This document shows positions 36,561 through 62,315 of a stretch of 64,000 nucleotides of DNA, in pieces. A program made the translations under genes and the position numbers. A model generated the notes under the pieces. That model saw nothing but the letters and a program-made list of their open reading frames with translations, ran no database searches and had not been told where the DNA came from. The DNA lies in assembly GCF_900107455.1 (NCBI RefSeq), contig NZ_FNQB01000001.1, forward strand, positions 558,001-622,000, given 5' to 3'. The stretch is from Asanoa ishikariensis. Lineage in GTDB: Bacteria > Actinomycetota > Actinomycetes > Mycobacteriales > Micromonosporaceae. Every line of letters begins with the position of its first letter. Position 1 is the first letter of the stretch.

Positions 36561-37130
36561 ATGCCACCTGCTGGAGACGCCCAGGAAACCCGCCGTCGCC
36601 TGGTCGAGGCCGCCTACGGCGAGTTCGCCACGCACGGCATAGCCGGCGCCCGGGTCGACCGGGTCGCGGCCGCCGCAGGCGTCAACAAGGCGCTCATCTA
36701 CTTCCACTTCAGCAACAAAGAGGGCCTTTTCACCGCGGTCTTCAATCAGGTCGTCGGCCAGGCCCTCGCTCTGGCGCCGATGGATGCCACGAACCTCCCG
36801 GAGTACGCCGGCCTCCTCTTCGACGCCGGCCTAGCCCACCCGGACGCCCTCCGCCTGGCCGCCTGGCACCGCCTCGAACGCGCCGCGGATCAACCCCCGC
36901 TGAAGGCCGTCCTGGACGCGAACCAGTCGAAGGTCGACGCGATCGCCAAGGCACAGGAAGCTGGGTACGTCACGACCCGCTTCACCGCGGCGGAGGTCCT
37001 CGCCCTGGTCCTCACGATCGCCAACATGTGGTCGGTCCTGACCCCGGAGCAGCACCTGACGGCGCCTCAGGACCCCGCAGCGCGCCGAGCCCTGGTCGTC
37101 TCGGCGTTGACGACCCTGCTCCAGCCGTAA
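36561..37130 (+). CDS. TetR/AcrR family transcriptional repressor
   Basis: 189-residue repressor. The HTH is at about 9-58 (R-R-R-L-V-E-A-A-Y-G-E-F-A-T-H-G-I-A-G-A-R-V-D-R-V-A-A-A-A-G-V-N-K-A-L-I-Y-F-H-F-S-N-K-E-G-L-F), with a C-terminal TetR_C-like helical domain. It starts 14 bases after the second operator, so it probably represses itself and the divergent SDR gene. Confidence 0.93.
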   Translation: MPPAGDAQETRRRLVEAAYGEFATHGIAGARVDRVAAAAGVNKALIYFHFSNKEGLFTAVFNQVVGQALALAPMDATNLPEYAGLLFDAGLAHPDALRLAAWHRLERAADQPPLKAVLDANQSKVDAIAKAQEAGYVTTRFTAAEVLALVLTIANMWSVLTPEQHLTAPQDPAARRALVVSALTTLLQP

Positions 37131-37152
37131 AGGCCGCCGCGGGTCGGCTCGT

Positions 37153-38421
37153 CTAGAGGGGCTGAGCAGTCTGGTTCTGCTTTTCCCACTGGCCCCTCGT
37201 CCGCACCAGTAGCTCTTCGGCCGCCCTGGCGGCATCGGCCGGCACCGGCTCGGCGAGCATGACGTCCGCGGTGCGACGCAGGGCGGCGACGAACTCCACT
37301 CCGTCCGGAGTCAGTGAGCCCGACTCCTCGGCCGCGGTCAGCCCTTGGTCGACCTGGAGGCGGTACTCGGCGAAGCGGTGCTCCGCCTCGGCGACCAAGC
37401 CACGCAGCGCGCGCCAGGTGTCGGCGACACCGACGAACGCGTACACCCCTTGCAAGAGGCCGGCCAAGGGCCGGGGATCGGTGCGCCAGGGCGCGAAATA
37501 CCGCCCCCTGTCCAGCGGGTCGGTCAGTTGCTTCAGGTCGAGCAGGGCGCTGAGCTTGGAGTGCTGAAACTCGTGCACCAACGTGACGGCGAAATCATGG
37601 GCCGAGGCGGGTCGGGTCAGGCCACACGCACCGAAGACGTCCCGCAGCGAGGCGCTCAGCGCGGAGTCGCGACCGGGTGCCAGCGGCACCAGCGAGCTCA
37701 AGCCGACACGCAGCTCGGCTGACCGGTCGGGAAGAAGGTCGGTCAGCAACTGCCACGCCTCGGCGAACAGCTCCTGCCACCGCTCCGCGGCGGCCGGGCT
37801 GAGCCGTCCCGTCGGCGGCGCGTGGTGGCCGTGCCGGTACGGATGAAGATCCTCCAGGTCGACCCGCACGGCGCCGGCGGCCAACTGGCGAAGCGGCAGC
37901 CAAGCAGGCGAGCCCGTCGTGGGATCCGCGGGGACCTCGATGCGCTGACCGTCGACGACCACGACGATCCGGCCGCCCGACGTCGTTGCCTCGACCTTCT
38001 CGTGGCCGTCGGCGACGACCGCACCGAGCCCCGGCAGCATGGCGTATCCATGGTCCACGGGAACCGCCACCGTGCCGTCGACCCCCGCTGCTGCCGCCGC
38101 GACCAGCGCGACGGCGGCCAGATGGGCCACGACCTGGGGGTCCGGCTTGTCCCGAGCAGCGCCCCGGCACGCGATGGCCGTCCATCCGCCGACCATCGGG
38201 GCCCCGACCACGGCGGCGAACCGGCCCGGGGCCGCGACTCGGGACCGCTCCAGCAGGTCCCGCACGGGCTCCGGGTCACCGGGCAGACAGGTGAGCAGGT
38301 ATTCGAGCAGGAGAACGTGCCGGCTGTACCTGGCGTCCCGCAACATGCGGACCGCCTCGGCTCCGCCGAGTCCGCTGCCGAGATCGTCGAGTGTGGACGG
38401 CGCGGACCCGTTAACCGGCAC
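37153..38421 (-). CDS. HExxH-motif peptide-modification protein of FxSxx-COOH locus
   Basis: 422-residue protein. H283-E-F-Q-H287 (in T-L-V-H-E-F-Q-H-S-K-L-S-A-L-L-D-L) is a zincin-like site, and the family is the HExxH putative peptide-modification group that accompanies radical-SAM peptide loci. The N-terminal half is helical without catalytic motifs. It may hydrolyse, trim or otherwise process the FxsA product; the activity is not established. GTG 38421 is chosen because AAGGAG sits eight bases upstream. It overlaps the end of fxsB by 11 bases, so the two are coupled. Last gene of the operon. Confidence 0.82.
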   Translation of the reverse strand: MPVNGSAPSTLDDLGSGLGGAEAVRMLRDARYSRHVLLLEYLLTCLPGDPEPVRDLLERSRVAAPGRFAAVVGAPMVGGWTAIACRGAARDKPDPQVVAHLAAVALVAAAAAGVDGTVAVPVDHGYAMLPGLGAVVADGHEKVEATTSGGRIVVVVDGQRIEVPADPTTGSPAWLPLRQLAAGAVRVDLEDLHPYRHGHHAPPTGRLSPAAAERWQELFAEAWQLLTDLLPDRSAELRVGLSSLVPLAPGRDSALSASLRDVFGACGLTRPASAHDFAVTLVHEFQHSKLSALLDLKQLTDPLDRGRYFAPWRTDPRPLAGLLQGVYAFVGVADTWRALRGLVAEAEHRFAEYRLQVDQGLTAAEESGSLTPDGVEFVAALRRTADVMLAEPVPADAARAAEELLVRTRGQWEKQNQTAQPL

Positions 38422-39640
38422 CAGATCGTCTCCTTCGCAAACCCTCGGCGACCGTCTTGTGAACGTGCCGGACGAACACGTTGAGGTCCGCGCAATACAC
38501 CGACGGCGACCGGAAACCGGCGCCAGGGCGGTATCTGTGCACGTAGTGCCCCCCGCCGCACAGGCCGACGACCGGACACGACAGGCACTCGTCGGCCAGG
38601 GCCCTCCGACCGATCTGCCGCGCGACGACACCCGGATCCGCCAGCGCCTCGTCGAGGTCGTCGTGCAGCACGTTCAAGCCGGTGGCTCCGGCGCCCGGGT
38701 ACGCGACCTTCAGGGCATCGACCTGCTCGACGGCGCCGTCCGACTCGATGACGACCGTCCCGGAGGGACTGAGCCCGAGCTGTTCGCTGGTGCTGCGGCC
38801 GCCCAGGACCAGGTTGATCGCCGCCTCGAAGAGGCGGACGCGAGTCGGCGGTGAGTCGGTGAACCAGCGGTCGAAGAATGCGATCAACCACTGGGCGTAC
38901 GTCGGTGAACCGGCCGGTCGCTCTGGCGGAGAACCCCACGTCGCGTGCGGCAGAAGAAGGTCGATCATCGGTGGCTCGAAGGCCAGTAACTGTTCGTAAG
39001 CGCCAATAGGATCGATGTCCACGTTGACGGTACTGAGAAGTCCGGAATAGGAGTCGTGATACTCCGGGCGACGGAGAAGCTCAATGCCGCGCGCGACGGC
39101 CGCGAAACTGCCACGGCCATTCTTGAATCGACGGTGCCGATCGTGGTCCTCGGGCGTGCCGTCGACGCTGACACCGACCTTGATCCGATGATCCACCAGC
39201 GTGCGGACCGTCGGCTCGTCCAGCCGTACACCGTTGGATTGCATGCCTATCTCGACCTGGCACGATGCGGGCGCCGACCGGCGAACGAGGTCGGCCAGCG
39301 TGATCAAACGATCAAGGCCGTAGAGCAGCGGCTCACCGCCGTGCAGCACCACGCGAAGGCGGGTCAACCCATGCCGCCGGACGTGTGCCAGCACACGCTC
39401 GATGGCGGCGTCCCGCACGGTGTCGGGCATCGAAGGTGGACGGTCGCGCCAACTCTGATCGGCGTGCTCGTAGACGTAGCAGTAGTCGCAGGCCAGGTTG
39501 CAGCGCTGATGAACCTTCAGAATCACCTCGCTGAACGGCACCGGAGTCCAGCCATCGGCCTTCAGCGCCGCGATGTCCAGCGCCGCATACGGCCATCTGG
39601 CCGCGGCACGTTGAGCACTCCGGACGCGATCGGGGCTCAA
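38411..39640 (-). CDS. fxsB: FxsB: radical SAM/SPASM peptide maturase
   Basis: 409-residue radical SAM enzyme. The [4Fe-4S]/SAM cluster motif is C47-N-L-A-C51-D-Y-C54 in V-H-Q-R-C, followed by Y-V-Y-E-H-A-D-Q-S-W, a hallmark of the FxsB subgroup. A C-terminal SPASM-type cysteine set (D-E-C-L-S-C-P-V-V-G-L-C-G-G-G and V-Y-C) holds auxiliary clusters. Related enzymes (XyeB, GrrM and FxsB types) form three-residue cyclophanes by joining an aromatic ring to the beta-carbon of the residue two positions on. The substrate here should be the FxS motif of FxsA, encoded nine bases upstream. The start, TTG 39640, is uncertain; it leaves the family's P-F-S-E-V-I-L-K-V-H intact. Confidence 0.93.
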   Translation of the reverse strand: MSPDRVRSAQRAAARWPYAALDIAALKADGWTPVPFSEVILKVHQRCNLACDYCYVYEHADQSWRDRPPSMPDTVRDAAIERVLAHVRRHGLTRLRVVLHGGEPLLYGLDRLITLADLVRRSAPASCQVEIGMQSNGVRLDEPTVRTLVDHRIKVGVSVDGTPEDHDRHRRFKNGRGSFAAVARGIELLRRPEYHDSYSGLLSTVNVDIDPIGAYEQLLAFEPPMIDLLLPHATWGSPPERPAGSPTYAQWLIAFFDRWFTDSPPTRVRLFEAAINLVLGGRSTSEQLGLSPSGTVVIESDGAVEQVDALKVAYPGAGATGLNVLHDDLDEALADPGVVARQIGRRALADECLSCPVVGLCGGGHYVHRYRPGAGFRSPSVYCADLNVFVRHVHKTVAEGLRRRRSGAG

Positions 39641-39649
39641 CGGCAGACC

Positions 39650-39844
39650 TCATCGCCCCGAAGCGAAGGATTGGAACGCGCTGAGGACGCCATTGGGGTC
39701 GTCAAGCGAGTTGATGACCTGTCGGAGGCCCCGGCCGAGGGCGCTGTCGTCGGCGAGATCCAGCAAATCGACGGGCTGCCCGGATACGTCCGGGATTGGT
39801 GCCCAGGCTCCGTCGGCCGTCTCGTCGGTGTGGACGAAATTCAT
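39650..39844 (-). CDS. fxsA: FxsA: FxSxx-COOH precursor peptide (64 aa)
   Basis: Ribosomal peptide precursor. It ends exactly in F60-A-S-G-R64, the FxSxx-COOH signature that names the family, preceded by an additional F57-Q-S59, so two FxS units stand side by side. The leader is acidic and includes P-V-D-L-L-D-L-A-D-D, a likely recognition element for FxsB. AGGAGGT lies five bases before the ATG, which fixes the start; the in-frame extension upstream has no such site. The modified product is predicted to carry a Phe-Ser cyclophane near the C-terminus. It stands between the NB-ARC/TPR gene and fxsB. Confidence 0.9.
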   Translation of the reverse strand: MNFVHTDETADGAWAPIPDVSGQPVDLLDLADDSALGRGLRQVINSLDDPNGVLSAFQSFASGR

Positions 39845-40095
39845 CGTGACCTCCTGCGCGCGCCAAGCGTCGGGGTAGACCGGAGCAACGCGCATCAAAT
39901 CGAGCGCCGCGGGTGCAGCGACAACGAGACGGGGCGACGCCTCAGCGACACGATCGGCACTCTCACGCCCCCTGCCATGCGCAATCTGTCGAAGACAGTC
40001 CAGCATTCACAGGATCGCATGTATATCGCCGACGAACAACCAACTCTAGGGATGCCGATAAATGCGATCATGCGGACAACGCGCGGTTGTATTGA
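39845..40095 (-). promoter_or_regulatory. gap between fxsT and fxsA with possible internal promoter
   Basis: This 251-bp non-coding interval is the only sizeable gap in the locus. On the minus strand it contains TATACA (40020-40025), a good -10 hexamer in an A/T-rich patch; I see no matching TTGACA at 16-18 bases. It ends with the strong ribosome site of fxsA. A separate promoter would let the precursor and its enzymes be made independently of the TIR/NB-ARC genes. Confidence 0.4.
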
Positions 40096-43000
40096 TCAGA
40101 ACGGGTGTGGGTCAAGCGTGCGGTGCAGGTACCGGAATTGGCGGAGGGCATCGACTGCCTGGTGATTCTCGCCCAGCAGGCCACTCAGACGGACGATCAC
40201 GTCTTTCAGCTCGGCATCGTGTCGTTTGCCCTCCATCTGGCGGCGGATGAGCAGGACATTCCCCTCGCTCCGCACCGTGTCCGGGTGATCGGGGCCGAGC
40301 TGGTCCTGCATCTCGTTCAGGCCCTTCTCGAACTGCGCGCGTGCACCGACCAGGTCGTCCTGGTCGGCGAGCATGATCGCCACGTTCACGCTGGCCGCTA
40401 GCGCGTACGGGTGGTCGGCGCCGAGAACCTGGGAGAACCCCTCGTTCGACTTCTCCGCGAGCGCACGGGCGGAAACCAGATCCTGGGCGGCGCGCGCCGT
40501 CGCGGCGCGGTTCGTGGCGCAGGCCAGGCGGTGCGGGTGGAGCTCGCCGAGGCCCAACCGTCCGTACGCGCGGTCGATCTCGTCCAACTCGGAACCCGCG
40601 CTCTCCACCTCGCCGACCGCGAGCAGGTTCACCGCGCGACTCAGCCGGGAGGCGAGAGTATCCGGGTTGTCCGGGCCCAGGAGATGGTTCAACTGCTCAT
40701 AGGCCTCCTCGAGCACCTCTGCTGCCTCGGCCGCCCGACCGGCGCTGCGCATCGAGACGGCGAGGTTGCTCCGGAAGATGTAGTACCGCGGAGTTCGCTC
40801 CCCGTGCACGATCCGCGCGCGCTCGCACAGATCTCCGAGTAGTTTGACGGATCCGTGGTAGTCGCCCGCCTCGCGCAGGTCCCGGCCTAGATTGGTGCCG
40901 GCCGTCAGCGTCGACGGGTGGTCTTCACCGAACATCGTGGACATCCGCTGGACCGCCGACTGGTCGTGCCGGCGTGCGGACCGGAAGTCGCCGACGAGCC
41001 GGAACGACGCGGCGAGGTTGTTCAGCGCGGACAGGGTGCGCGGGTGGTCCTCCCCGAAGACGTCCGCCCACGCGGCGTAGGTGACTTTGTCGCGGTCGAG
41101 GGCGTCCGCATACAGGCCGAGCGCGCGCAGGTCGGCGCCGAGGCTGCCGGCCGTCATCAGCGTGTGCGGGTGATTCGCGCCGAGCAAGTCGGTCTGTTCC
41201 GCCAGGATCTTCTCGTTCAGCGCGCGCGACTCGGTGAACTCCGACTCGTCCCGGAGGATGTTGCCCAGGTTGAACTGCAGGTGCAGGATCTGCCGGCGAA
41301 GCGACTCGCGCTCCTCGTCGGATTCCGCATGGTTCATCAGCTCACGCCACCGCCCGACGTTGCGTTCGGCGATGTCCCGCGCCGCCTTGATGCCGCCGGT
41401 CATCCAGACATACCGCACGCGGTCGATGAAGAGCCGGCGGACCGCCTCGTCCCGCGACTCGTGCGCCTCGGCGAGCTCGATGTGCGGCCAGATCATCTGG
41501 AACCGTGGCCACGTGGACGGGTTGTCCACGTCGTCGCGGGGCCGCGCGGCGGCCAGCACCGCATGCACTTCTCGCCTGGTCTCCTCGATCTCTTCTTCGG
41601 TCATACGCTGCTTCACCACGTACTGCAGCACCCGGTGGATGTGCACTCGGCGGTTGGCGACGTCGAGCTTGAGCAGGGCGAGCCGGCTGATCGTGTGGAC
41701 CAGTGACCATCGGTATGCCGTCTCGGTGACGGCCGGGTCGAAGGGGCGCAGGACCTCGGCCATCCGGTCGCCGTAGATCAACTCAAGGCTGATCTCCGGG
41801 GCAAGCAACGAGCAGAGCTGCAGCAACCGGTACGACCCGGCCGACGTCTCCCGGAGCCGGGACAGCGACAGGTCCCAGGTCTTCTCCACCGAAGGGTTGC
41901 CCGGACCGGCCAGCATGCTGTCCGGCCGCTCCTGGATGTCGCGCAGGTAGTCCTCGACCGGGGCGCCGGTCTCGGCCAGCCACGCGCCGGCCGCGGCGAC
42001 GGCGATCGGCAGGTCGCCGAGCAGCTCCGCGATCCGGTTGGCGTGCTCGAGCCGAATCAGGGGCACTCGTTGTTGAAGGTGCGCCACACTCTCGCCGCGC
42101 TGGAAGACGTCCATCTGGATGGTCTGCCGATAGTCGACCCACAGTGGGTTGCGCGAGGTGATGAGTACGTGGCCGCCCGGCCCGGACGGCAGGTACGGGG
42201 AGACGCTCTCGATGTCCTCCGCGTTGTCGAAGACCAGCAGCCAGCGGTCGACTTCGCCGCGCTCGAGCCGCTGCTTCAGCGCCTCCGCCTGATCCGGGAT
42301 CGTGCCCTCCTCGACCGTCCCGAGCCGCTTGGCCAGCGTGGACAGCTGCGTGTCGATGAAGGCCACCTCGTCGGCGTTGATCCACCAGACCAGGTCGTAC
42401 GCGTTGCGGAAGCGGTGGGCGTACTCCATGGCCACCTGGGTCTTACCGATGCCGCCCATGCCCTGCAAGGTGATCGACTGGTTCCCCTGCAAGACGGCGC
42501 TCGATCCCTGGCTCTGCAGCTGGCTGCGCAGCTCGAGGATGTCCGCCTCGCGACCGGTGAACAGCTTGTTGCGGATGGGCGCGTTGAAGACACCCGTCGC
42601 GTTGCCCGGGAACCGCACAACGATTCGGTCGGGATCGACCTCAGCCGTCGGACGCCGGACCAGCCTGAGCAGGCGGTCGATGGCCACCTCGGCCGACTGG
42701 TTCGCCAGGAACGCGGAGTCCTCAGCGGCATGACCGCGGAACGGTCGCACGTCGGCGATGTAGACCACGAGAGGCGGCCGGGGGTCGGGCCGTTCCTTGG
42801 AGACACGAGCGGCCTCGGCCTCGGAGTTGGCCGAAGAGACGAGGGTCAACTGGCGGACGTCCTGCTCGATCTCGTCGGCGGCGGCGCTGCCGCTCTCGAC
42901 GGTGCGGACGGTGATGTCGGCCGCCTGGAGGACTTCGGTCACCCACTCCGCCCAGAGGCGATCGACCGGAAGGTATCGAAGGACCACCTTCTCCTCCGGC

Positions 43001-43989
43001 CGAGACACCCGCCGGGCGAAGCGATCCAGGGTACGGGTGCGCAGACCCTCGTCCATCGGAGTGAACTCGGACACCGCCCCGTTGGTGATGTACCGGGTCA
43101 GGGCCACATATGACGCGAGCATCGTCGACGGCGCGACCGGCTGGTCGCCAAAGGTCGCCAGAGTCTCCTCGAACGCGTAGAACGCCTGGTAAGGAACCTC
43201 GACCGTCGCCCAGTACCGGTCTCGCCCGGGATCCGGCATTCCGGCCGGCAGGCCGCTGAAGCGTTGCCGGGCGAGCAGGCGGCCGGCGTCGACCCGCAGC
43301 TTCTCCGCCGAGTCGACGCGCATCGGCACCGGCAGCACCCGGATCGCGCGCGTGTTGCTCCGGCCGACGCCGGCGGCCACCCGGGCCGCGCCGTCGATGC
43401 CCTGCTCACTGAACGTGAAACAGTCGACCAGCACGTCCGGCAACTGTCTGGTGCAGATGCCCGCGACGTCGCTGACGCCGGTGCGGCTGTCGATGAGCGC
43501 GAAGTCGTAGTTCTTCTTCATGTCGGCGCGCAGCGCGTCGAAGAGCTTGCCGCCGCCCAGGTTCTCGTAGAACTCGTCCCAGTTGCGCTCGTAGACGCTC
43601 CGCTCGTAGCCGGGATCGTTCTGCCCGGCCGGCAGGAAATCGATGCTGCCGCCCCGCGGGAAGTGCTTCCAGTTGAGCGAGAATGCGAACTGGCTGACGC
43701 GCGCGAAATCGGCGTGCCAATTGTCCTTACGGTCCGCGTCCTGCCTGGTGGCCTGGTCGTACTGGTTGACCATCTCGACAACGCCGCCCGCGCCCGTCAG
43801 GTCGCTTGGGCGGATGAATGGGTGGAAGAAGCGGTGGAGGCCGGGTGACTCCAGGTCCCAGTCTGCGACCAACACCCGATAGCCGCTGGCCGCCAGGATC
43901 CATGCGACGTTGGCCAGGGCCATCGTGCGGCCGGTCCCACCCTTGTACGAGTAGAACGTGACAACGGTGCCGTCGCGGTTCTCAGCCAT
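40096..43989 (-). CDS. fxsT: FxsT: ParA-like NTPase + NB-ARC + TPR protein of FxSxx-COOH system
   Basis: 1297-residue multidomain protein. Residues 8-300 are a ParA/MinD-like NTPase with deviant Walker A K16-G-G-T-G-R-T22 and Y-D-F-A-L-I-D-S-R-T-G near 161-171. Residues ~334-445 form a degenerate TIR/effector-associated-like region. Residues ~475-800 form an NB-ARC/STAND ATPase with Walker A G510-M-G-G-I-G-K-T517, Walker B W-L-L-V-F-D-N-A-E near 583-591 and I-T-S-R-N near 610. The C-terminal ~450 residues are TPRs with the kinesin-light-chain pattern (G-x-D-H-P-x-T-L). It corresponds to the FxSxx-COOH system TPR protein. The ATG at 43989 has AGAGGAC upstream and overlaps fxsC by eight bases. 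It is probably a receptor or signal integrator for the peptide. Confidence 0.92.
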   Translation of the reverse strand: MAENRDGTVVTFYSYKGGTGRTMALANVAWILAASGYRVLVADWDLESPGLHRFFHPFIRPSDLTGAGGVVEMVNQYDQATRQDADRKDNWHADFARVSQFAFSLNWKHFPRGGSIDFLPAGQNDPGYERSVYERNWDEFYENLGGGKLFDALRADMKKNYDFALIDSRTGVSDVAGICTRQLPDVLVDCFTFSEQGIDGAARVAAGVGRSNTRAIRVLPVPMRVDSAEKLRVDAGRLLARQRFSGLPAGMPDPGRDRYWATVEVPYQAFYAFEETLATFGDQPVAPSTMLASYVALTRYITNGAVSEFTPMDEGLRTRTLDRFARRVSRPEEKVVLRYLPVDRLWAEWVTEVLQAADITVRTVESGSAAADEIEQDVRQLTLVSSANSEAEAARVSKERPDPRPPLVVYIADVRPFRGHAAEDSAFLANQSAEVAIDRLLRLVRRPTAEVDPDRIVVRFPGNATGVFNAPIRNKLFTGREADILELRSQLQSQGSSAVLQGNQSITLQGMGGIGKTQVAMEYAHRFRNAYDLVWWINADEVAFIDTQLSTLAKRLGTVEEGTIPDQAEALKQRLERGEVDRWLLVFDNAEDIESVSPYLPSGPGGHVLITSRNPLWVDYRQTIQMDVFQRGESVAHLQQRVPLIRLEHANRIAELLGDLPIAVAAAGAWLAETGAPVEDYLRDIQERPDSMLAGPGNPSVEKTWDLSLSRLRETSAGSYRLLQLCSLLAPEISLELIYGDRMAEVLRPFDPAVTETAYRWSLVHTISRLALLKLDVANRRVHIHRVLQYVVKQRMTEEEIEETRREVHAVLAAARPRDDVDNPSTWPRFQMIWPHIELAEAHESRDEAVRRLFIDRVRYVWMTGGIKAARDIAERNVGRWRELMNHAESDEERESLRRQILHLQFNLGNILRDESEFTESRALNEKILAEQTDLLGANHPHTLMTAGSLGADLRALGLYADALDRDKVTYAAWADVFGEDHPRTLSALNNLAASFRLVGDFRSARRHDQSAVQRMSTMFGEDHPSTLTAGTNLGRDLREAGDYHGSVKLLGDLCERARIVHGERTPRYYIFRSNLAVSMRSAGRAAEAAEVLEEAYEQLNHLLGPDNPDTLASRLSRAVNLLAVGEVESAGSELDEIDRAYGRLGLGELHPHRLACATNRAATARAAQDLVSARALAEKSNEGFSQVLGADHPYALAASVNVAIMLADQDDLVGARAQFEKGLNEMQDQLGPDHPDTVRSEGNVLLIRRQMEGKRHDAELKDVIVRLSGLLGENHQAVDALRQFRYLHRTLDPHPF

Positions 43990-45142
43990 CGATGTCCTCT
44001 TCATGGGCCGGACCATGGTCATCGGCGATCCTCGGCAGCCGTGGCAGGGCGCCCTTCGGCAGGAAGACCGGAGCAGTGCTCAGATATACCTTGCGGGTGT
44101 CGTCAACCACGGTAGGCATTCTTTTCCCGAGTTGATCAGCGTCGAGAATGCGCCGCACCTGACGCTGGGTGCCGCCCAGTTTATCGTTGACAATGCGACT
44201 GAGCTCGTGGGCCCGCTTGCGATAACGTGGATCTTCGCCGTCGGCCACAACGACCACCACGGCCCAATCGGGCAGCCGCGCGGCCACCGAGTCCAGCGTC
44301 GTTCGCCCTTGTGGAGACTCGGCGATCCGGGGATCGACGAGCACGAGCACCGCGCCCTCGGCCAGCGGTCCGAACTCGATCTGCGCGTCGGCCACGCGCG
44401 GCACCATGCCCAGGCGCTCGCCGTGAATGGCGGCCAGTTCGGCAGGGGGCAGTCGCAACCGGTTGCCGAACGGGCGCCAGCGCGACGGCGGATCGCTGGG
44501 CGCGAGCACCACCACGGTGAGTCGCATGCCGCTGAAGCTCGACTCCGGAACCTCCACATCGTCGATCACCACCGGCGTCGACGGACGCGGACCGGCCGCC
44601 CCGGCGATGTCCACGATCCGGCGGGCCAACCGGCGCAGGACCTCGCTGTACTGGCTCTCGTAGGCGGCCAGCCGACACAGTGCCCGGAGGCCGTTCGCCT
44701 TGTATTCCTTGATGCCGGCGCCCAGCGTCAGGGACGCGGCATGCTCCTCCTGGTGGTTCCAGGCCTCCCACGGCACCCAGAGCACCGGCAACAGGCGTAG
44801 AGCCTGCTCACGTCCACTTAGTTCGTGCAGGTAGGCGGCCCGTTCCCGGAGCGGCACGGACCTGATGAAGTAGCGCGGCGAGTACAAGGCCACGAAGACG
44901 TCCGCGCGCCTGAGCACCTCGCTCACGTCGGCCTTCCAGTTCTCGGACGGCCGACTCGTGTCGTCGAAGTATCCGACGTCCGCCGAGCGATCGTCCCCGA
45001 CGATGTCGCGGACCTCGTTGGACAAGCGGTGGAAAAGATCGCCCACCGTGTGGTCGCCGTCCTCCGGTGCGTCGGCTCCCAGCGGGGCCGACCGGGCATA
45101 GCTGAGGTAGAACGGGTACCGGTCCGGGCGAGACGGAGTCAC
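43982..45142 (-). CDS. fxsC: FxsC: TIR-like protein of FxSxx-COOH system
   Basis: 386-residue protein. The N-terminal ~165 residues are TIR-like (Y-P-F-Y-L-S-Y-A-R-S...V-G-Y-F-D-D...A-D-V-F-V-A-L-Y-S-P-R-Y-F). The C-terminal half is the FxsC-specific domain (M-R-L-T-V-V-V-L-A-P-S...W-R-P-F-G-N-R-L-R-L-P-P). TIR domains of bacterial immune systems often cleave NAD+; whether this one does is unknown, as the usual W-C-x-x-E is replaced by L-R-E-R-A-A-Y. GTG start overlapping the preceding stop (GTGA). Second gene of the operon. Confidence 0.88.
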   Translation of the reverse strand: MTPSRPDRYPFYLSYARSAPLGADAPEDGDHTVGDLFHRLSNEVRDIVGDDRSADVGYFDDTSRPSENWKADVSEVLRRADVFVALYSPRYFIRSVPLRERAAYLHELSGREQALRLLPVLWVPWEAWNHQEEHAASLTLGAGIKEYKANGLRALCRLAAYESQYSEVLRRLARRIVDIAGAAGPRPSTPVVIDDVEVPESSFSGMRLTVVVLAPSDPPSRWRPFGNRLRLPPAELAAIHGERLGMVPRVADAQIEFGPLAEGAVLVLVDPRIAESPQGRTTLDSVAARLPDWAVVVVVADGEDPRYRKRAHELSRIVNDKLGGTQRQVRRILDADQLGKRMPTVVDDTRKVYLSTAPVFLPKGALPRLPRIADDHGPAHEEDIDG

Positions 45143-45807
45143 ACGTCCTCCTCGAAGCTCGTCGGCAGTTCGGAGAGGGACGGCACGTCAGGCATGACCA
45201 CGCAGGACTGCCGGATGCGGTTCACGTGCATGGCGAGCTCCCAGACAATGGCGCGGTAGGCCTTGTCCTGGCCGGTCCGCATGAGACCCAGCAGGCCGTT
45301 GTTGCGGTATGCGGTCTCGTAGCCGGGATCCGGCAGGTTCGCCGGCACGAAGAGCCCGACGCGTTCCACCTTCGGCGGAAGTTTGACGGTGTGATCGAAG
45401 GGATGCCAGATCACCGGCACGATCGCAGTCTCCCCGGTGCGGGCCTTCGATGAGTTCGGCGAGACCTTGCGCCGTGCGAACGCGTGCCACTCACGTGCGC
45501 ACCACTTGCTGTCCCGCAACAAGGGGACAGACATCAGACAGATCAGCACTTGACACGTGCCGATCGCGGTTAGCAACTGCCGCTCCCAATCGGTGCCGAC
45601 GCTGTCGGCGCGGTCCAGGTAGCCGGGGTCATAGCCGAGCGGCGCGCCGATCAACTCACCGACGTCCTCGGTCAGATCCTGGAAGAACAGCCGGACCTCC
45701 GGCCCGCGTGGACGAGACGCCACAGTTGGATGGCCGGGTTCGTAGGGTCGCCGATAACTGACGAAGAACACGGGCGCGTCCGGCATCTCGGGAAGCGGTT
45801 CGCTCAT
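45139..45807 (-). CDS. TIR-domain protein, first gene of FxSxx-COOH locus
   Basis: 222-residue TIR-like protein: V-F-F-V-S-Y-R-R (strand A), V-R-L-F-F-Q-D-L, G-T-D-W-E-R-Q-L-L-T-A-I-G-T-C-Q-V-L-I-C-L-M-S-V-P-L-L-R-D-S-K-W-C-A-R-E-W. The S-K-W-C-A-R-E motif carries the Glu expected in NAD-cleaving TIR proteins, so this copy may be active, unlike the degenerate FxsC. The last four bases overlap fxsC (GTGA). The promoter should lie in the 128-bp gap upstream, where ATCAGGTGT (45854-45862) is inverted as ACACCTGAT (45938-45946). Confidence 0.85.
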   Translation of the reverse strand: MSEPLPEMPDAPVFFVSYRRPYEPGHPTVASRPRGPEVRLFFQDLTEDVGELIGAPLGYDPGYLDRADSVGTDWERQLLTAIGTCQVLICLMSVPLLRDSKWCAREWHAFARRKVSPNSSKARTGETAIVPVIWHPFDHTVKLPPKVERVGLFVPANLPDPGYETAYRNNGLLGLMRTGQDKAYRAIVWELAMHVNRIRQSCVVMPDVPSLSELPTSFEEDV

Positions 45808-45935: not shown

Positions 45936-46862
45936 CTACACCTGATCCGAGTGGTATCGACCAGCCGGTTCCAAGATCCGTTCGGGCGCGCCAGCGAGCC
46001 AGCCGAGGACGGTGGGAAGCTCTTCCATCGCTCCGAAGTGCGCGGTGTCCCGTTGAATTCGGACTTCCGCGTTGTCGATCTGCTCGGCCAGCCAGAGGGT
46101 GTGCTCGACCGGCGAGAAGTTGTCCCGCTCGCCGTGCCACAGCAGGGTCGGCTGCAGGATCTTCCTGGGATCGAAGCCCCAGTCGCGCCGCAATGCCAGC
46201 ACATCGTCGATCCACCCGTACGGGCCGGTGCGCATCGCCTCGCGATAGGTGTCGGTCAGCAGGCCGCGCATCGCGGAGCTCTGGACCGCCGTCTTGTCAG
46301 GCGCCGTCATCTGACCGCGCAGACCGTCCAACATGCTGGTCGGGTTGCGGCGAGCGCGGTCGGCCTGCAGCCGCAGACTCTCAATGAGCTTGGGCTCGTC
46401 CTGGTCGGCGGTCGTGTATGCACGCACATTGGCGTCGGTCATGCCGCTGAACCAGTCGAGGCCGGGTGCGTCGTGCGGCGCCAGGCAGACCAACGCGGCC
46501 ACCCGGTCGACCCGATCCTCGAGAATGGCCGCAGTGGCCAGCGCATGAGGGCCGCCACCGCTGCGACCCACCACACTGAAGCGCTCGACGCCGAGACGGT
46601 CGGCGATCCGCTCGACATCCCGAGCAGCGTCCGCGACAAAGCGACCGATGTGCCTGCTCGATTCGCCATAACCCGGCCGGTCATAGCACACGAGCCGGAC
46701 ACCGAGCTGATGCAGGAAGCTGGGCCGCAGCTTGGGGCCGAGTCGGCTGCCGGGTGTGCCGTGCATGAGAAAGACCGTCACACCGGTCTCGGCGCCGGAG
46801 ATCTCGACGCTGACCTCACGGCCGTCGCGAGTCGGTATCCGGGTGGCAGGCGATGGAATCAC
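45936..46862 (-). CDS. alpha/beta hydrolase
   Basis: 308-residue hydrolase of the proline-iminopeptidase/epoxide-hydrolase-like type. The oxyanion loop is H-G-T-P-G-S-R, the nucleophile is S101 in V-G-R-S-G-G-G-P-H, and the acid and His fall in H-G-E-R-D-N-F-S-P and D-T-A-H-F-G-A. The segment C-Y-D-R-P-G-Y-G-E-S-S is typical of the family. No signal peptide. GTG start with GGAGGG upstream. It lies on the same strand as the FxSxx-COOH operon and 128 bases before it, but nothing shows that it belongs to that system. Confidence 0.88.
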   Translation of the reverse strand: MIPSPATRIPTRDGREVSVEISGAETGVTVFLMHGTPGSRLGPKLRPSFLHQLGVRLVCYDRPGYGESSRHIGRFVADAARDVERIADRLGVERFSVVGRSGGGPHALATAAILEDRVDRVAALVCLAPHDAPGLDWFSGMTDANVRAYTTADQDEPKLIESLRLQADRARRNPTSMLDGLRGQMTAPDKTAVQSSAMRGLLTDTYREAMRTGPYGWIDDVLALRRDWGFDPRKILQPTLLWHGERDNFSPVEHTLWLAEQIDNAEVRIQRDTAHFGAMEELPTVLGWLAGAPERILEPAGRYHSDQV

Positions 46863-47511
46863 TCATGCCCTCCGTCAACGTCGCGGTTGAACATCCAATG
46901 ACATCTACGTCGGCCCATGGACGTCGGTTCATGGTGCCACGCCGTCCGACAGCGTGCCACAATCATCGTGGCACCTGTGACCGGCGCGGTGTTCACAAAC
47001 AGACAATTTTCCTTATGTTTGGTTAAAGCCCTCTGCGCTAAACGGCGGAGACGCTCCTGCGGACATGGGCAGACCGGCGGCGACCTCCCCGCGACCTTAG
47101 GGAGAAACGCCACAGTAGGGCCGAGGATTACGCTTTGCGTCCGGCCAGACACCTGACCAAGACTCGACAGTTCTTGGTGCCATTCGGATACGAACGGCGT
47201 GCGAGCGCTCCGATCATGCGAGCCGCGCGCACCCGATCGGTCCACGTGCGGGAGCGGCGACGAGCCGGCCGACCGTCACCCGCCGCGGTGCAGCCGACGA
47301 CCGTCATGCTGAAGGCGCGCTCGGCGTACCCGATCTTGATCGAGTCCCGTACGGCAGCAATGTGGTCGGTTGGCGCCGCCGGAGCGGTCCGCCACCGTGG
47401 CCCCGGCGCTTCGTCAGATGCCGGCTCGCTTGATCGGCTGACCGCTTTGGGAACGCTGATTCGCTGATAGCGATTGTTGGGCGGCGTTGTCAGCCCAAAT
47501 ACAACGTATTG
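46863..47511. other. 649-bp non-coding region with clustered short repeats
   Basis: The part next to the hydrolase carries a 14-bp tandem repeat, ACGTCGGCCCATGG/ACGTCGGTTCATGG (46907-46934). Two direct GTGCCAC copies exactly 20 bp apart (46934, 46954) follow, then an inverted GTGGCAC (46968-46974). These look like regulatory sites of the hydrolase promoter. Further right, an A/T-rich patch near 47000 and then ordinary GC-rich sequence show no frame I can support as a gene. Confidence 0.5.
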
Positions 47512-47584
47512 TGGGCCGCCAGGGACTCGAACCCTGAACCTATGGATTAAAAGTCCACTGCTCTGCCGGTTGAGCTAGCAGCCC
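47512..47584 (-). tRNA. tRNA-Lys (anticodon TTT)
   Basis: 73-base cloverleaf. The acceptor stem is GGGCTGC/GCGGCCC with one G-T pair and discriminator A. The D-loop has A-G-C-T-C-A-A-C-C-G-G-C-A-G-A-G, and the anticodon loop is CTTTTAA with anticodon TTT. The T-arm contains GGTTCGAGTCC. CCA is not encoded (CAC follows). Confidence 0.96.
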
Positions 47585-58186: not shown

Positions 58187-59137
58187 GTGCGTAGCACCAG
58201 GGCATTGCGCTGGATCGCGGCCGTCGTCATGACGACCACCGCGGCGGTGGTCGGGCTGGTCCAGCCCGCCTCGGCCGCACCGGTGGTGCTGAGGACCGTG
58301 CCGATCTACAACCTGCTCACCCTCGAGGCGCAAAAGCCCAAGGTGATGGCCGTGCTGAACGCCTCGACCGGCAACACGGCTCCGATGATCCAGGCCCCCT
58401 TCAGCGAGCCATTGCCGAACAACGACTTCATCGTCATGGAACGGGAGGGCACCGCCAACCTGTACCGGCTCAAGCCACAGCACACGTACACCAATGACGG
58501 CAACGTGCACAACGACAAGTGCCTCGCGGTGAAGAACGCCGACGGGGGCAACAACATCCCGATCGTCAACGCTGCGTGTACGTACGACGACACCGACAAC
58601 GACGTCTGGAAGCTGGAGTACGGCTATCTCGACCAGTTCACCGGCGCCTACTTCATCTCGCCGCCGCTCGGGAGCGGGTCATCGCCCGGGCGGCGGCGTC
58701 GCGCGCCGCCGGCGTTCGGCGACGTGCGCCCGCAGGGTCTCGGCTTCGGGCATACGCAGGTTGGCGTAGAGGGCGACAGCCCGTCCGAAGTGGAGGCCAG
58801 CGTCGGTGGGGGACCCAAGTGCGTCGTGCGCGTGGCCAAGGCCGGCGTGCGCACGCGCCTGCTCGTCGCGGGCGCCACTGATCGTGGTCAGGGTGAGTGC
58901 CGCGGTGTGGTGGTCGAGTGCCTCGGCGTGCTGTCCGGTCGCCCGCGCCGCCTCACCGAGGCCGTTGCGCGCATTGCCTTCGCCGTTCTGGTCGCCGAGC
59001 TCCCGGAACATCGTCTCCGCCTGCCGCAGCAGGTCGGCCGCTTCGGTGTGGCGTCCGAGCTCCGGGTAGACGACTCCGAGGCTGGCCATCGCCGACGCCT
59101 CGCCGCTGCGGTCGCCGTTGCGTTGGTACTGGCGTAG
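58187..59137 (+). CDS. secreted ricin-B-like protein, truncated and read into antisense sequence
   Basis: GTG start with AAGGGAG eight bases upstream. A signal peptide (residues 1-31, ending S-A-A) leads to a ricin-type beta-trefoil start: K-V-M-A-V-L-N-A-S-T-G-N, N-D-K-C-L-A-V-K-N-A-D-G-G-N-N-I-P-I-V-N-A-A-C, and Y-F-I-S. After about residue 158 (base ~58662) the third repeat expected of the fold is missing. The frame instead runs 160 codons through the antisense of the convergent SARP regulator, giving low-complexity Gly/Arg/Val sequence. The 3' end was therefore lost by recombination. Whether the secreted stub folds is doubtful. Confidence 0.6.
   Translation: MRSTRALRWIAAVVMTTTAAVVGLVQPASAAPVVLRTVPIYNLLTLEAQKPKVMAVLNASTGNTAPMIQAPFSEPLPNNDFIVMEREGTANLYRLKPQHTYTNDGNVHNDKCLAVKNADGGNNIPIVNAACTYDDTDNDVWKLEYGYLDQFTGAYFISPPLGSGSSPGRRRRAPPAFGDVRPQGLGFGHTQVGVEGDSPSEVEASVGGGPKCVVRVAKAGVRTRLLVAGATDRGQGECRGVVVECLGVLSGRPRRLTEAVARIAFAVLVAELPEHRLRLPQQVGRFGVASELRVDDSEAGHRRRLAAAVAVALVLA
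58664..58677 (-). terminator. short hairpin after the SARP regulator
   Basis: CCGCTC (58664-58669) and GAGCGG (58672-58677) pair over two bases, immediately beyond the stop of the minus-strand regulator gene at 58679. Probably its natural terminator; there is no T run. Confidence 0.4.
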
Positions 59138-62029
59138 GGACCGAAGATAGAGCTCGGCAGCCCTGCTGTGGTGGCCGCGCCGGTGCTCGACGCGGCCGAG
59201 CCGTTCGAGCGCGTCGCCGTCGCCGGGTGCGTCGCCGATGGTGCGGCACAGCGTGAGGGCCCGCTGAACGTGGCCCGCTGAGGCATCGAGGCGTCCCAGT
59301 TGGTACTCGTCCCGGCCGAGGTTGATCAACGCCCGTACCTGACCGAGCTGGTCCCCGACGTCCAGATAGCGGTTCAGCGCGCGCCGGTGGAGGTCGGCCG
59401 CGGGGCCGTAGCGCCCACGGCGCTGCTCGACGCTGCCGAGGTTGTTCAGTGCCCGCGCTTCGCCGCCGCGGTCGCCGACGTGCCGGAAATGCCTCCGGGC
59501 GGTACGCAGGTAGTCGGCGGCCAGATCGAACTGCCCGCACTTGAAATGGAAGCAGCCGAGACCGTGCAGGGCATGTGCCTGAGCGGCCCGGTCGCCGTCG
59601 AGTCGTGCGGCGGCCAGCGCGTGGCGATAGATGATCAATGCGTCCGTGTAGTGGCTGGCCTCGAGATAGCGAAACAGCACGGTCGCGAGACGGATCGCGT
59701 GGCTGCCCCGGCCGTGCGCTGCGGCGTATGCGACCACCGCGACCAGGGTGGGTCGCTCGGCGTCGAGCCAGGCCAGGGCGGACGCGGCAGCGGACAGGTC
59801 GGGCATGGGCGTCGGCGACTCCGGCACCCGCGGCCGCCGGTGCGCCTCGGCGGGATGCAGGACGTCCATCGCCGCTGCCGCGGTGGCCAGGTAGAAGTCG
59901 AGGAGCCGGCCGTACGCCGATGCGCGTTCCCGCTCTCCGCAGAGTTGTATCGCGTACGCCCGGAGGAGGTCGTGCATGCCGTGCCGGCCGGCGTCGTTGG
60001 CCTGGGTCAGGTGCGCACGGCCGAGCGCGGCCAGCGTGCGACCCGCCTGGCGGGGCGTGGTGTCGGCCAACGCCGCCGCGGCGTACGGGTCGAGATCCGC
60101 TCCCGGATGGAGCCCGAGCAGCCGGAACGTTCGGGCGTCGTCGGCGCTCAGGTTTCGCATCGACCAGGAGAAGACCGTGGCGACGGCGGCCCGGGGATCG
60201 CCGCCGGCGTCCAGGGACCGCAGCCGCTGATGGTGGTCGGCCAGCTCGGCGACGAGGTCGGCGAGTGGCGTCTGGCTACGCGCGGCAGCCAGCTCGGCCG
60301 CGACCCGCAGCGCCAACGGAAGGTGGGCGCACTGCCGGGCGAGCGCCACGACAGCGTCGAGCGATGCCTGCGCCCGCGTGCCGAGCAGCCGGCGGAGCAG
60401 GACGACTGACTCGTCCTCGCGCAGGAGGTCGAGGTCGACCCGCCGGGCGCCCTGGGTCGCGACGAGGCCGGCCAGGTCGTCGCGGCTGGTGACCACGACG
60501 GCGCAGCCGGCGGTGCCCGGCAGCAGCGGCCGGACCTGCTCGGCCGTGCCGGCGTTGTCGAGCAGCATCAACACGCGCCGGCCAGCCAGCTCCGTGCGGA
60601 GCTGTGCGGCCCGCTCGTCGACCGTGAGGGCGAGGTCCGCGCCCGGCACGCCGAGGCCGGTGAGGAGCCGCGCCAGTGCGTCGGCGGGGTCCAGTGGCGT
60701 GTCGGGGTCGTACCCCCGGAGGTTCAGGTAGAGCTGGCCGTCCGGGAACTTCTCGGCGACCAGGTGCGCCCAATGGACGGCCAGCGCGGTCTTGCCCGCG
60801 CCGGCGGTGCCGGCGACCACCGCGACGGAGTCCGTGGTGAGCAACTGGTCCAGCGCCGCCAACTGCGGGGTGCGACCGACGAACGGCGACGTTGCGGCTG
60901 GGAGCTGGGCGGGAATGCGCCGCGCCGGCCGGTCCGCCGGCGCCGCACCGGTCGCGGGCCGCGCGCCGCGCAGGATGCGCAGGTGGATGTCGGCGAGCGC
61001 GGCGCCCGGCTCGACTCCAAGCTCGTCCGCGAGCACGGCGCGCAGGTCCGCGAACACCCGCAGGGCGGCCGCCCTCTCGTCGGCGGCCGCGAGCGCGAGC
61101 ATCAGCCGGCCGTGCACGGCCTCCTGGAGCGGCTCTTCACGACAGAGCGCCCGCAGGGCGGGAATCGCCCGCTCACCGGCGCCGAGCGCGATGGCGGCGT
61201 CGGCGTAGGCCACGGTGGCGGCGATCCGCCGCTGCCCGGCGGCAATGGCAGCCGGATGTTGGCGCAGGCGGTCACCCGCGTCGACGAGCGCGGGTCCGCG
61301 CCAGCAGCGCAGCGCGTCCGCGTACAACTCGGCCGCCTGCGCCGGGTGGCCGTCCGTCCAGGCGGCCTGAGCACGCGTCTCGAGATCCTCGAACCGCGCC
61401 AGGTCGACCTCCTGGAAGCTCAGCTCAGCCGCGTAACCGAGACCGGCGAACCGCACGGTGTGGCCGGCCGGGCCGAGCAGCGCGCGCACCTCACCGACGT
61501 AGAGCTGGACCAGGTTGCGCGCGGTCCGCGGTGGCCGGTCTCCCCACAGCGCGTCGACGAAGTCGTCGACGGGCACGGTCCGGCCGTGCTGCAGGGCGAG
61601 GAGCGCGACCACCGTGCGCTGCCGCTCGGACCGGATGTCCAACGGGGAACCGTTGACGACGACGTCCAGCGGGCCGAGCACGCCGATGCGCAGTTGCCCG
61701 CCGCTGCCGCCGGCGGCGGTCAAGACGGACAGCAACGCCTCGTGCTCCTGGACGCTCAGCGCCAGTGCGTCGAGCAGGCCGCGAACCGATCGCGACCGCG
61801 GCCGCCCGATCCGGCCCTGCTCGATGTCGCGCACCGCGCGCACGCTCAGGCCCGCCCGCCGGGCCAGTTCCTGCTGGGTCAGGCCGGCCGCCGACCGATG
61901 CCGGTGGATCGCCGCTCCGACGTATGCCGCTTGGTGCTCGCCCACGACCGTCCCGCACTCACAGACCTGAATGGATCGCCCATGGTAGTGGTCCCGGTGC
62001 AGCACCGTACGGTGGCGCGACGCCATCAT
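58679..62029 (-). CDS. AfsR-like regulator: XRE HTH + SARP + NB-ARC + TPR
   Basis: 1116-residue multidomain activator. An XRE HTH (about 36-95, H-R-S-A-A-G-L-T-Q-Q-E-L-A-R-R-A-G-L-S-V-R-A-V-R-D-I-E-Q-G) is followed by a SARP winged helix (I-G-V-L-G-P-L-D-V...R-S-E-R-Q-R-T-V-V-A-L-L) and the BTAD domain (V-D-L-A-R-F-E-D-L...G-R-L-M-L-A-L). An NB-ARC ATPase (V-V-A-G-T-A-G-A-G-K-T-A-L-A) and C-terminal TPRs complete it. Fusion of an extra XRE domain in front of an AfsR-type protein is less common than plain SARP. The start at ATG 62029 has no clear ribosome site; GTG 61966 or 61945 are options. Such proteins activate secondary metabolism, but no biosynthetic cluster is in this window. Confidence 0.9.
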   Translation of the reverse strand: MMASRHRTVLHRDHYHGRSIQVCECGTVVGEHQAAYVGAAIHRHRSAAGLTQQELARRAGLSVRAVRDIEQGRIGRPRSRSVRGLLDALALSVQEHEALLSVLTAAGGSGGQLRIGVLGPLDVVVNGSPLDIRSERQRTVVALLALQHGRTVPVDDFVDALWGDRPPRTARNLVQLYVGEVRALLGPAGHTVRFAGLGYAAELSFQEVDLARFEDLETRAQAAWTDGHPAQAAELYADALRCWRGPALVDAGDRLRQHPAAIAAGQRRIAATVAYADAAIALGAGERAIPALRALCREEPLQEAVHGRLMLALAAADERAAALRVFADLRAVLADELGVEPGAALADIHLRILRGARPATGAAPADRPARRIPAQLPAATSPFVGRTPQLAALDQLLTTDSVAVVAGTAGAGKTALAVHWAHLVAEKFPDGQLYLNLRGYDPDTPLDPADALARLLTGLGVPGADLALTVDERAAQLRTELAGRRVLMLLDNAGTAEQVRPLLPGTAGCAVVVTSRDDLAGLVATQGARRVDLDLLREDESVVLLRRLLGTRAQASLDAVVALARQCAHLPLALRVAAELAAARSQTPLADLVAELADHHQRLRSLDAGGDPRAAVATVFSWSMRNLSADDARTFRLLGLHPGADLDPYAAAALADTTPRQAGRTLAALGRAHLTQANDAGRHGMHDLLRAYAIQLCGERERASAYGRLLDFYLATAAAAMDVLHPAEAHRRPRVPESPTPMPDLSAAASALAWLDAERPTLVAVVAYAAAHGRGSHAIRLATVLFRYLEASHYTDALIIYRHALAAARLDGDRAAQAHALHGLGCFHFKCGQFDLAADYLRTARRHFRHVGDRGGEARALNNLGSVEQRRGRYGPAADLHRRALNRYLDVGDQLGQVRALINLGRDEYQLGRLDASAGHVQRALTLCRTIGDAPGDGDALERLGRVEHRRGHHSRAAELYLRSLRQYQRNGDRSGEASAMASLGVVYPELGRHTEAADLLRQAETMFRELGDQNGEGNARNGLGEAARATGQHAEALDHHTAALTLTTISGARDEQARAHAGLGHAHDALGSPTDAGLHFGRAVALYANLRMPEAETLRAHVAERRRRATPPPGR

Positions 62030-62315
62030 CGCTTGATCGATACCAGGGGGTGTGGCGTCGCGCTGACCAGCGCTGACGCGTCATAACCGGCATACGACCG
62101 GCAGCACCACCGGCGGCTTCCCGCCTATCGAGACGTCAGCTTCGCGCCGCGAGCCGGCGGCGTTCCGATTGGACCACCTCGTTGAGCCGTTCCAGGTCGC
62201 CTTGCGCTGCGGCCGATCACTGGTCAGAAGAACGCCGACAAATCGCGGAACGCAATCGCCCCTACCTGGCAGCGGCTCCAAGGTGGGCCGCGAAGGCCGG
62301 TCCGCGTGTAGACCG

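Follow-up and report, generated by a model that had tools for sequence, protein, structure and literature searches.

A gene cluster related to the FxSxx-COOH peptide systems is located in a 64,000-nucleotide stretch of the Asanoa ishikariensis genome (contig NZ_FNQB01000001.1, positions 558,001 to 622,000; the whole stretch is referred to as the window). Window positions 37153-45807 hold six open reading frames (ORFs), all on the minus strand and transcribed in the order short TIR, FxsC, STAND protein, FxsA, FxsB and FxsH. An earlier note on this DNA had described six minus-strand genes, nearly all overlapping. The six ORFs are confirmed, and the TIR/FxsC (4 nt), FxsC/STAND (8 nt) and FxsB/FxsH pairs overlap, but FxsA and FxsB are 9 nt apart, and the STAND gene and FxsA 251 nt apart. 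Because of this last distance, the stretch between STAND and FxsA could possibly separate two transcripts. A scan of the locus for sigma-70-type promoters and terminators finds nothing above shuffled sequences.

The short TIR protein (45139-45807, 222 residues) carries a WCAREW motif and scores 126.7 bits on NF040588 and 30.1 bits on PF13676. FxsC (43982-45142, GTG start, 386 residues) scores 127.3 bits on NF040588, so that both proteins are just under the cut-off of this model (130). The place of FxsC beside a ParA-type receptor is the same as in related loci. The STAND receptor (40096-43989, 1297 residues) contains a ParA-like domain, a degenerate TIR domain, an NB-ARC domain and TPRs. Its score of 869 bits on NF040586 (cut-off 300; 131.6 bits on NF047398) and its NB-ARC and TPR matches agree with the earlier description of a ParA/NB-ARC/TPR protein, but the Walker A lysine of the ParA-like domain is replaced by arginine. 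FxsA (39650-39844, 64 residues) is the candidate precursor of a ribosomally synthesized and post-translationally modified peptide (RiPP). FxsB (38411-39640, TTG start, 409 residues) is a radical S-adenosylmethionine (SAM)/SPASM maturase, predicted to form a cyclophane (444.4 bits on TIGR04269, cut-off 370), and FxsH (37153-38424, about 423 residues, with an approximate start codon near 38421) belongs to the α-ketoglutarate (aKG)-dependent HExxH peptide β-hydroxylase family (156.9 bits on TIGR04267, cut-off 40). The NCBIfam FxSxx-COOH models match all six genes, three of them under cut-off. Of the complete FxSxx-COOH system that had been proposed, FxsB, the STAND protein and the HExxH protein score above their cut-offs and FxsA, FxsC and the short TIR protein below them, and a further gene at 45936-46862 had been missed. 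Since the precursor is under the TIGR04268 cut-off, the locus is, by these scores, a divergent hybrid relative of the FxSxx-COOH system rather than a strict member.

The order TIR-FxsC-STAND-FxsA-FxsB-FxsH is found again in two genomes from a different genus (G470 and G539; L and G numbers denote loci and genomes of the comparison), with 65-82% identity by domain. The family scores together with this recurrence rule out a chance origin, and the same architecture in these genomes rules out an assembly artefact. The pairwise ratios of nonsynonymous to synonymous substitution rates (dN/dS) between the window and G470 are all below 1, with values of about 0.26 for the short TIR gene, 0.32 for FxsC, 0.26 for STAND, 0.51 for FxsA, 0.22 for FxsB and 0.32 for FxsH.

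The comparison is based on 80 named FxsB loci, annotated with profiles built in this analysis. They are the best 80 of 529 relatives in named genomes, and nearer relatives are over-represented as a result. Forty further loci were taken because family genomes showed FxsC there. Near-duplicates were handled as follows: L056 and L059 were left out of the trees, and L054, L056 and L059 out of the tail and hydrolase counts, while all three were retained in the TIR glutamate, ParA-motif, 80-locus co-occurrence and fused-frame HExxH counts. Among the 80 loci, NB-ARC is found in 68, NB-ARC or TPR in 70, FxsH in 65, ParA in 31 and FxsC in 29. FxsC is present only with a ParA-type receptor, as all 29 FxsC loci have ParA. 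The 12 loci without NB-ARC include three full stretches of 21 kb (L077, L098 and L150), the others being shorter, down to 4 kb. The earlier note had raised the question of whether TIR and NB-ARC genes always travel with fxsA/B; NB-ARC largely does (68/80), but FxsC does not (29/80). Loci with fxsA/B and no NB-ARC are not the rule, which upholds the proposal that the set acts as one system. In the phylum, FxsB (E value of 1e-60) is found in 11 of 396 genomes, with at least 15 loci (scoring was limited to four candidates in any one genome). Of these 15 loci, 11 have an NF040586 match within 10 kb; the match is lacking at two loci of the genome that contains the window and at those of G235 and G050. 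Within the window's family, 118 of 200 genomes carry FxsB and 81 carry FxsC.

FxsB matches the structure of ChlB (PDB entry 9gm3, E value 8.8e-73), and its residues Cys47, Cys51, Cys54, Cys352, Cys355, Cys361 and Cys383 are invariant in set A1. FxsH matches PDB entries 22nu (4.8e-56) and 8s5f (ChlH, 2.2e-5) with the HExxH motif aligned, and this motif is intact (HEFQH). The HExxH protein as a peptidase is ruled out, as its family (NCBIfam TIGR04267) is that of a hydroxylase. The window's own genome (G000) has three further FxsB genes (C3:1364008, C5:402589 and C6:491292), and the precursors beside the C6 and C3 genes end in GFCSFLDADL and GGFSSFVDADL, respectively.

Two lineages are observed among the loci. 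In the first, FxsB is fused to FxsH and accompanied by FxsC and a ParA-type receptor. In the second, FxsB and FxsH are mostly separate and the NB-ARC/TPR protein lacks ParA. Judged from trees and gene content, the window locus is a hybrid, with FxsB/FxsH from the separate-gene lineage and the receptor genes from the FxsC/ParA lineage. The closest maturases are those of Paractinoplanes ovalisporus (L074), with 67% identity for FxsB and 59% for FxsH, and the receptor parts are nearest, among the loci compared, to L143, L147, L104, L116 and L057. The trees are from quick searches, with support from the Shimodaira-Hasegawa-like approximate likelihood ratio test (SH-aLRT) only. The FxsB tree (93 rows) places the window within the second lineage, with L074 as its sister (support 96), and its grouping with the first lineage is rejected by the approximately unbiased (AU) test (p = 0.013). 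The ParA label changes 8 times on this tree, at least 6 times by the starred branches. In the NB-ARC tree (94 rows), the window is found in a set of seven rows that all have ParA (support 100), together with six others from its own family. Its placement with the downstream NB-ARC genes of L074-L076 is rejected (p = 4.6e-5). Placement with the three upstream NB-ARC genes of these loci, of which two or three have long branches, is not rejected (p = 0.19), but gene content still separates the window receptor from these genes, which lack ParA and the degenerate TIR domain. A ParA receptor near a second-lineage maturase is also found in L075, L111, L113, L133 and L119. Two modules with different histories, separated by 251 nt, might be two unrelated systems that are adjacent by accident. 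This is very improbable, however, as the six-gene order with the hydrolase (see below) recurs in G470 and G539 with every gene conserved, and FxsB and NB-ARC co-occur broadly. The hybrid locus can be regarded as an exchange experiment done by nature, which bears on the question of which module determines the specificity of the peptide.

FxsA, which ends in SAFQSFASGR and scores 18 bits on TIGR04268, is the likely precursor in view of its position, the AGGAGG sequence before its ATG at 39844, and orthologues with a similar C-terminus beside FxsB (L074-L076, L234 and L235). The orthologues end in SSFGSFVSDS (L074), SAFQSFTS (L075), SAFQSFTSA (L076) and SAFSSLTPPPNP (L234 and L235). The six peptides have S[AS]FxS[FL] in common, and the tails after the Ser residue are 5 (window), 5, 3, 4, 7 and 7 residues long. 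The earlier assignment as an FxSxx-COOH peptide fits FASGR by letter, but the TIGR04268 alignment stops at Ser59. Because the relatives keep SxFxS yet have 3-7 residues following the Ser, the FASGR match is probably coincidental, with Phe57-Ser59 as the more likely position of the ring. The FxSxx-COOH terminus is near-universal in the loci with fused FxsBH but is not conserved in the window's lineage. A candidate precursor is present in 58 of 62 loci where the FxsB frame continues into FxsH, and 56 of these 58 have a C-terminal F-x-S-x-x (tail of 2). L138 also has it by reading (FSSAL), and the candidate in L135 is likely a noise ORF. The tail pattern is not uniform, as the Frankia hybrids L113 and L133 also have longer tails and L111 ends in FGNAV. 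Apart from this FGNAV in L111, little was found when precursors were sought by GC content at third codon positions and short-ORF listing in the loci without an F-x-S ORF. Multi-core precursors adjoin FxsB in L059/L101, L058 and L150, with the repeats GNFSSFIE, GNFNSFI or GFSSYTEAPS.

The stand-alone TIR proteins keep the Glu residue of the NADase-type motif in 116 of 117 copies (74 loci, 43 with two copies): 70 of 71 long (FxsC) and all 46 short ones. Both stand-alone proteins of the window have this residue and the TIR fold. We take this Glu to be the catalytic position, as in plant and animal TIR domains. Its conservation is consistent with the earlier proposal that the TIR proteins are enzymes. 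A tandem of one active and one dead TIR, the latter being FxsC, is ruled out by the Glu in 70 of the 71 long copies. In the TIR domain of the receptor, on the other hand, the Glu is missing from 71 of 73 ParA-type proteins, that of the window included. TIR domains outside ParA proteins keep it in 8 of 11 cases, and these 8 loci lack FxsC; two of them are in the window's own genome, with no FxsB detected. The difference between receptor TIR domains in ParA and non-ParA proteins gives a Fisher p value of 1.6e-7, without correction for kinship and with the 40 loci fetched for FxsC. The distribution of the Glu residue suggests a cis/trans complement between the receptor TIR and the stand-alone TIRs.

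The ParA-like domain of the window receptor has KGGTGR, with Arg in place of the Walker A Lys, and KGGTGR[TS] is found in 73 of 74 ParA-like copies. The P-loop of its NB-ARC domain (GMGGIGKT) is intact. A family scan of the STAND protein gave no match to a DNA-binding domain. The structure model of FxsC (predicted local distance difference test score of 81, predicted template modelling score of 0.63) shows a TIR domain at residues ~7-183, with NAD-bound RUN1 among its best structural matches, and a second TIR/flavodoxin-like α/β domain at residues 205-355. The window contains a second NB-ARC frame (58679-62080, minus strand, 1133 residues), nearest among the loci compared to the NB-ARC genes of FxsB loci L143, L102 and L123. 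Elsewhere in the same genome (C6:42142-43337, L236), another TIR/FxsC pair accompanied by an NB-ARC protein is possibly an orphan receptor module; no FxsB is found within the 16-kb stretch examined there.

The gene at 45936-46862 (minus strand) encodes an α/β hydrolase of 308 residues with a GRSGG nucleophile elbow (PF00561, 75 bits), which is an overlooked component of the system and goes with the receptor module. Filtered ORFs of at least 110 residues were clustered around 71 ParA-type loci, often to only 2-3 kb beyond the module, and this hydrolase is the sole broadly recurring neighbour family (53/71). By a dedicated profile, 23 of the 31 named ParA-type loci have it no more than 1.2 kb from the module, compared to none of 49 named FxsB loci without ParA. 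For all the loci examined, the counts are 56/72 with ParA and 0/58 without. Of the 56 loci, 52 have it on the strand opposite to the neighbouring receptor gene; the copies in the window, L234 and L235 share the receptor's strand and lie upstream of the TIR gene. In the hybrid locus, the hydrolase adjoins the receptor genes. The 200 family genomes contain 75 hydrolase matches at 389 bits or above and 23 at 307 bits or below. For at least 62 of the 75, the start is no more than 10 kb from a listed FxsB or FxsC, and for at least 66 no more than 13 kb, compared to at least one of the 23, a partial match. Nine of the 75 have no FxsB or FxsC within 13 kb among the matches listed. In L095 and L096, which have FxsB and no ParA in the stretch examined, a hydrolase is located ~5 kb away beside another TPR gene.

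The hydrolase also shows weak similarity to S33 aminopeptidases (PF12146, 34.5 bits). It could release the peptide if the matured peptide were a toxic payload and the STAND/TIR part controlled its release, and a toxin is one of the two roles named for such peptides by Kaur et al. (2020; eLife, PMC7159879). We consider this quite unlikely, as the hydrolase accompanies the receptor module and not FxsA/B/H, and the Glu-bearing TIR proteins would be superfluous.

Nine other neighbour families recur in 5-9 of the 71 loci each. A Pfam scan of representatives of eight of them found no transporter. The ninth is an AAC(3)-like acetyltransferase (PF02522), which many first-lineage loci carry between FxsBH and FxsC and the window locus lacks. 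It is a possible third tailoring enzyme, with examples in L104 (12052-13167), L116 (12283-13131, 222.8 bits), L143 and L147. The neighbours bear on the possibility that the RiPP is secreted and has the NB-ARC/TPR protein as its biosynthetic or regulatory partner, with the TIRs as side components. Such a role would be in keeping with a related plasmid locus, where a 'cyclophane-containing RiPP biosynthesis TPR protein HaaT' is annotated beside HaaA and an FxsB-family maturase, and with NB-ARC being more common beside FxsB than FxsC. Nonetheless it appears unlikely, as no transporter was found among the eight families (within the reach of the survey given above), the STAND protein has no DNA-binding domain match, and two conserved TIR genes would be left unexplained. 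An effector-type SLATT_3/SLATT_1 protein is encoded near nine first-lineage Streptomyces loci, at least 0.8 kb from the module (for example, L125 8625-9773, minus strand). These nine loci are among those whose FxsBH has lost the HExxH motif. Eight loci, seven of them among these nine, have a nearby gene of another family with no Pfam match. Since these Streptomyces loci are close relatives, shared synteny may explain all of this recurrence.

At the left border, DNA similarity to the SDR/TetR pair of the window stops at 37100-37131 in all five sampled congeners, without quite reaching the fxsH stop at 37153. As this coincides with the end of the TetR gene at 37130, the border can be placed only somewhere within the intergenic stretch. 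FxsC is present in one of the other five congeners (G412). A tRNA-Lys gene (47511-47584, minus strand), located 1.7 kb upstream of the short TIR gene, might mark the border of an island. A scan of IMG/VR with the STAND protein found no relative, and the IMG/VR relatives of FxsB have at most 40% identity among the best 80 of 127. FxsB-like matches are found in 25 plasmid records, all below 60% identity. A search of PADLOC-DB 2.0.0 (2023) gave no full-length match, with partial matches only, of STAND residues 8-55 to PDC-M28B and of the radical SAM core of FxsB to pVip.

The reading that we prefer, with a probability of roughly 0.4 for the whole, is a two-module switch resembling nucleotide-binding leucine-rich repeat receptors (NLRs), with the peptide as internal signal and TIRs that act in trans. 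The first module (FxsA-FxsB-FxsH) would produce the RiPP, with FxsB linking Phe57 to Ser59 as a cyclophane and FxsH placing a β-hydroxyl on the FxsA-derived peptide. The second module (hydrolase, short TIR, FxsC and STAND) would be an intracellular NLR-like switch. The NB-ARC/TPR protein, with its own ParA-like and TIR-like domains lacking key residues, would serve as sensor and scaffold and, once activated, would gather the two Glu-bearing TIR proteins in trans. These could then cleave NAD+, stopping the cell or making a nucleotide signal. The FxsA-derived peptide would be the internal signal that sets the switch, and the hydrolase would belong to the receptor side, where it would probably remove or release the signal. 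This reading is supported by the family memberships of the proteins, by the presence of NB-ARC beside most FxsB loci and of FxsC only with ParA-type receptors, by the cis/trans Glu complement and the ParA Lys-to-Arg replacement, by the FxsC N-terminal domain modelling as TIR and the dN/dS values of 0.2-0.5, and by the hydrolase as the one broadly recurring neighbour, with no transporter among the eight families scanned.

The peptide had earlier been suggested as a ligand of the receptor. Tight peptide-receptor matching is not seen, as the peptide stays with its maturase across differing receptor modules, but a shared F-x-S ring could still be recognized. A more specific version, where the cyclophane RiPP gates the STAND protein, the TIRs act in trans, the hydrolase resets or releases, the maturation modules are swapped and only the F-x-S ring is read, is somewhat unlikely in all its parts. 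The logic could also be inverted, such that the modified peptide holds the receptor off, and infection or stress that blocks SAM-, aKG- and O2-dependent maturation frees it. By the chemistry of these families, SAM and a reduced Fe-S cluster as well as aKG and Fe(II) would be required for maturation. Of the 65 fused FxsBH frames, 14 lack the HExxH motif and 51 keep it, so that hydroxylation, but not the radical SAM step, seems dispensable in those 14. The same facts fit an activator equally well, and we give an inhibitory peptide slightly lower odds still than a toxic payload.

Several observations weigh against the two-module switch. FxsC is missing from 51 of the 80 FxsB loci, and FxsC rates in the counts that include the forty further loci reflect their selection. 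The residue patterns are uncorrected for kinship, and the single TIR of L147 lacks the Glu column. FxsA scores 10 bits below its cut-off of 28. The peptide tail tracks the maturase and not the receptor, which disfavours specific peptide-receptor recognition. The SLATT genes were encountered only in closely related Streptomyces loci, and the window cassette has none. Finally, a link to export may exist in six Streptomyces loci, where a secreted trypsin-type protease recurs nearby.

Since FxsB is found in more than half of the sampled genomes of the window's family, the role of FxsA/FxsB peptides beside STAND and TIR proteins is a question that concerns many actinomycetes. The hydrolase and the cis/trans TIR Glu pattern are concrete parts for testing the mechanism.

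This kind of system is already known from NCBIfam and from Kaur et al. (2020); the hybrid make-up and the hydrolase component are found in this analysis. All six window genes match the NCBIfam FxSxx-COOH set (TIGR04267, TIGR04268, TIGR04269, TIGR04276, NF040586, NF040587 and NF040588), in which the HExxH family is named aKG-dependent β-hydroxylase. NF040587 is a fused FxsBH with an inactivated hydroxylase part, whereas the window has split genes and an intact HExxH motif. Kaur et al. (2020) described FxSxx peptide-processing systems with a radical SAM/SPASM gene and an AP-ATPase with TPRs, noted an inactive MinD/ParA-like domain in the stand-alone actinobacterial loci, and suggested the peptide as toxin or signal. 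The window shares with these stand-alone systems the precursor, the radical SAM/SPASM enzyme, the HExxH-type protein and the NB-ARC/TPR protein with inactive ParA-like domain. In comparison, its gene order differs, and it is a hybrid in which FxsB and FxsH are separate genes. Section 24 of that paper speaks of a metallopeptidase and mentions no FxsC, tandem TIR pair or α/β hydrolase, all of which are present in the window locus; in the parts consulted, an α/β hydrolase is tied to caspase VMAP and GTPase-centric systems. Literature searches, with subscription literature largely outside their reach, surfaced no paper joining FxsB and radical SAM.

The ChlB/ChlH pair of Chlorogloeopsis, a cyclophane synthase and an aKG-HExxH hydroxylase whose activity is summarised in PMC12636437, is matched by FxsB/FxsH of the window, with a different precursor. 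The Haa locus of a Streptomyces plasmid (HaaT/HaaA/FxsB/HaaN; L280 5884-10679) resembles the window in having an FxsB-family maturase and a TPR protein upstream of the precursor; it has no annotated FxsC, ParA or HExxH gene and carries an N-acetyltransferase instead. The plant TIR-NB-LRR receptors RUN1, RPP1 and RPS4 also combine TIR and NB-ARC, and the FxsC TIR model is close to their TIR domains. Unlike these receptors, the window has its Glu-bearing TIRs in trans, a degenerate receptor TIR, TPRs in place of leucine-rich repeats (LRRs), and a RiPP in the same locus.

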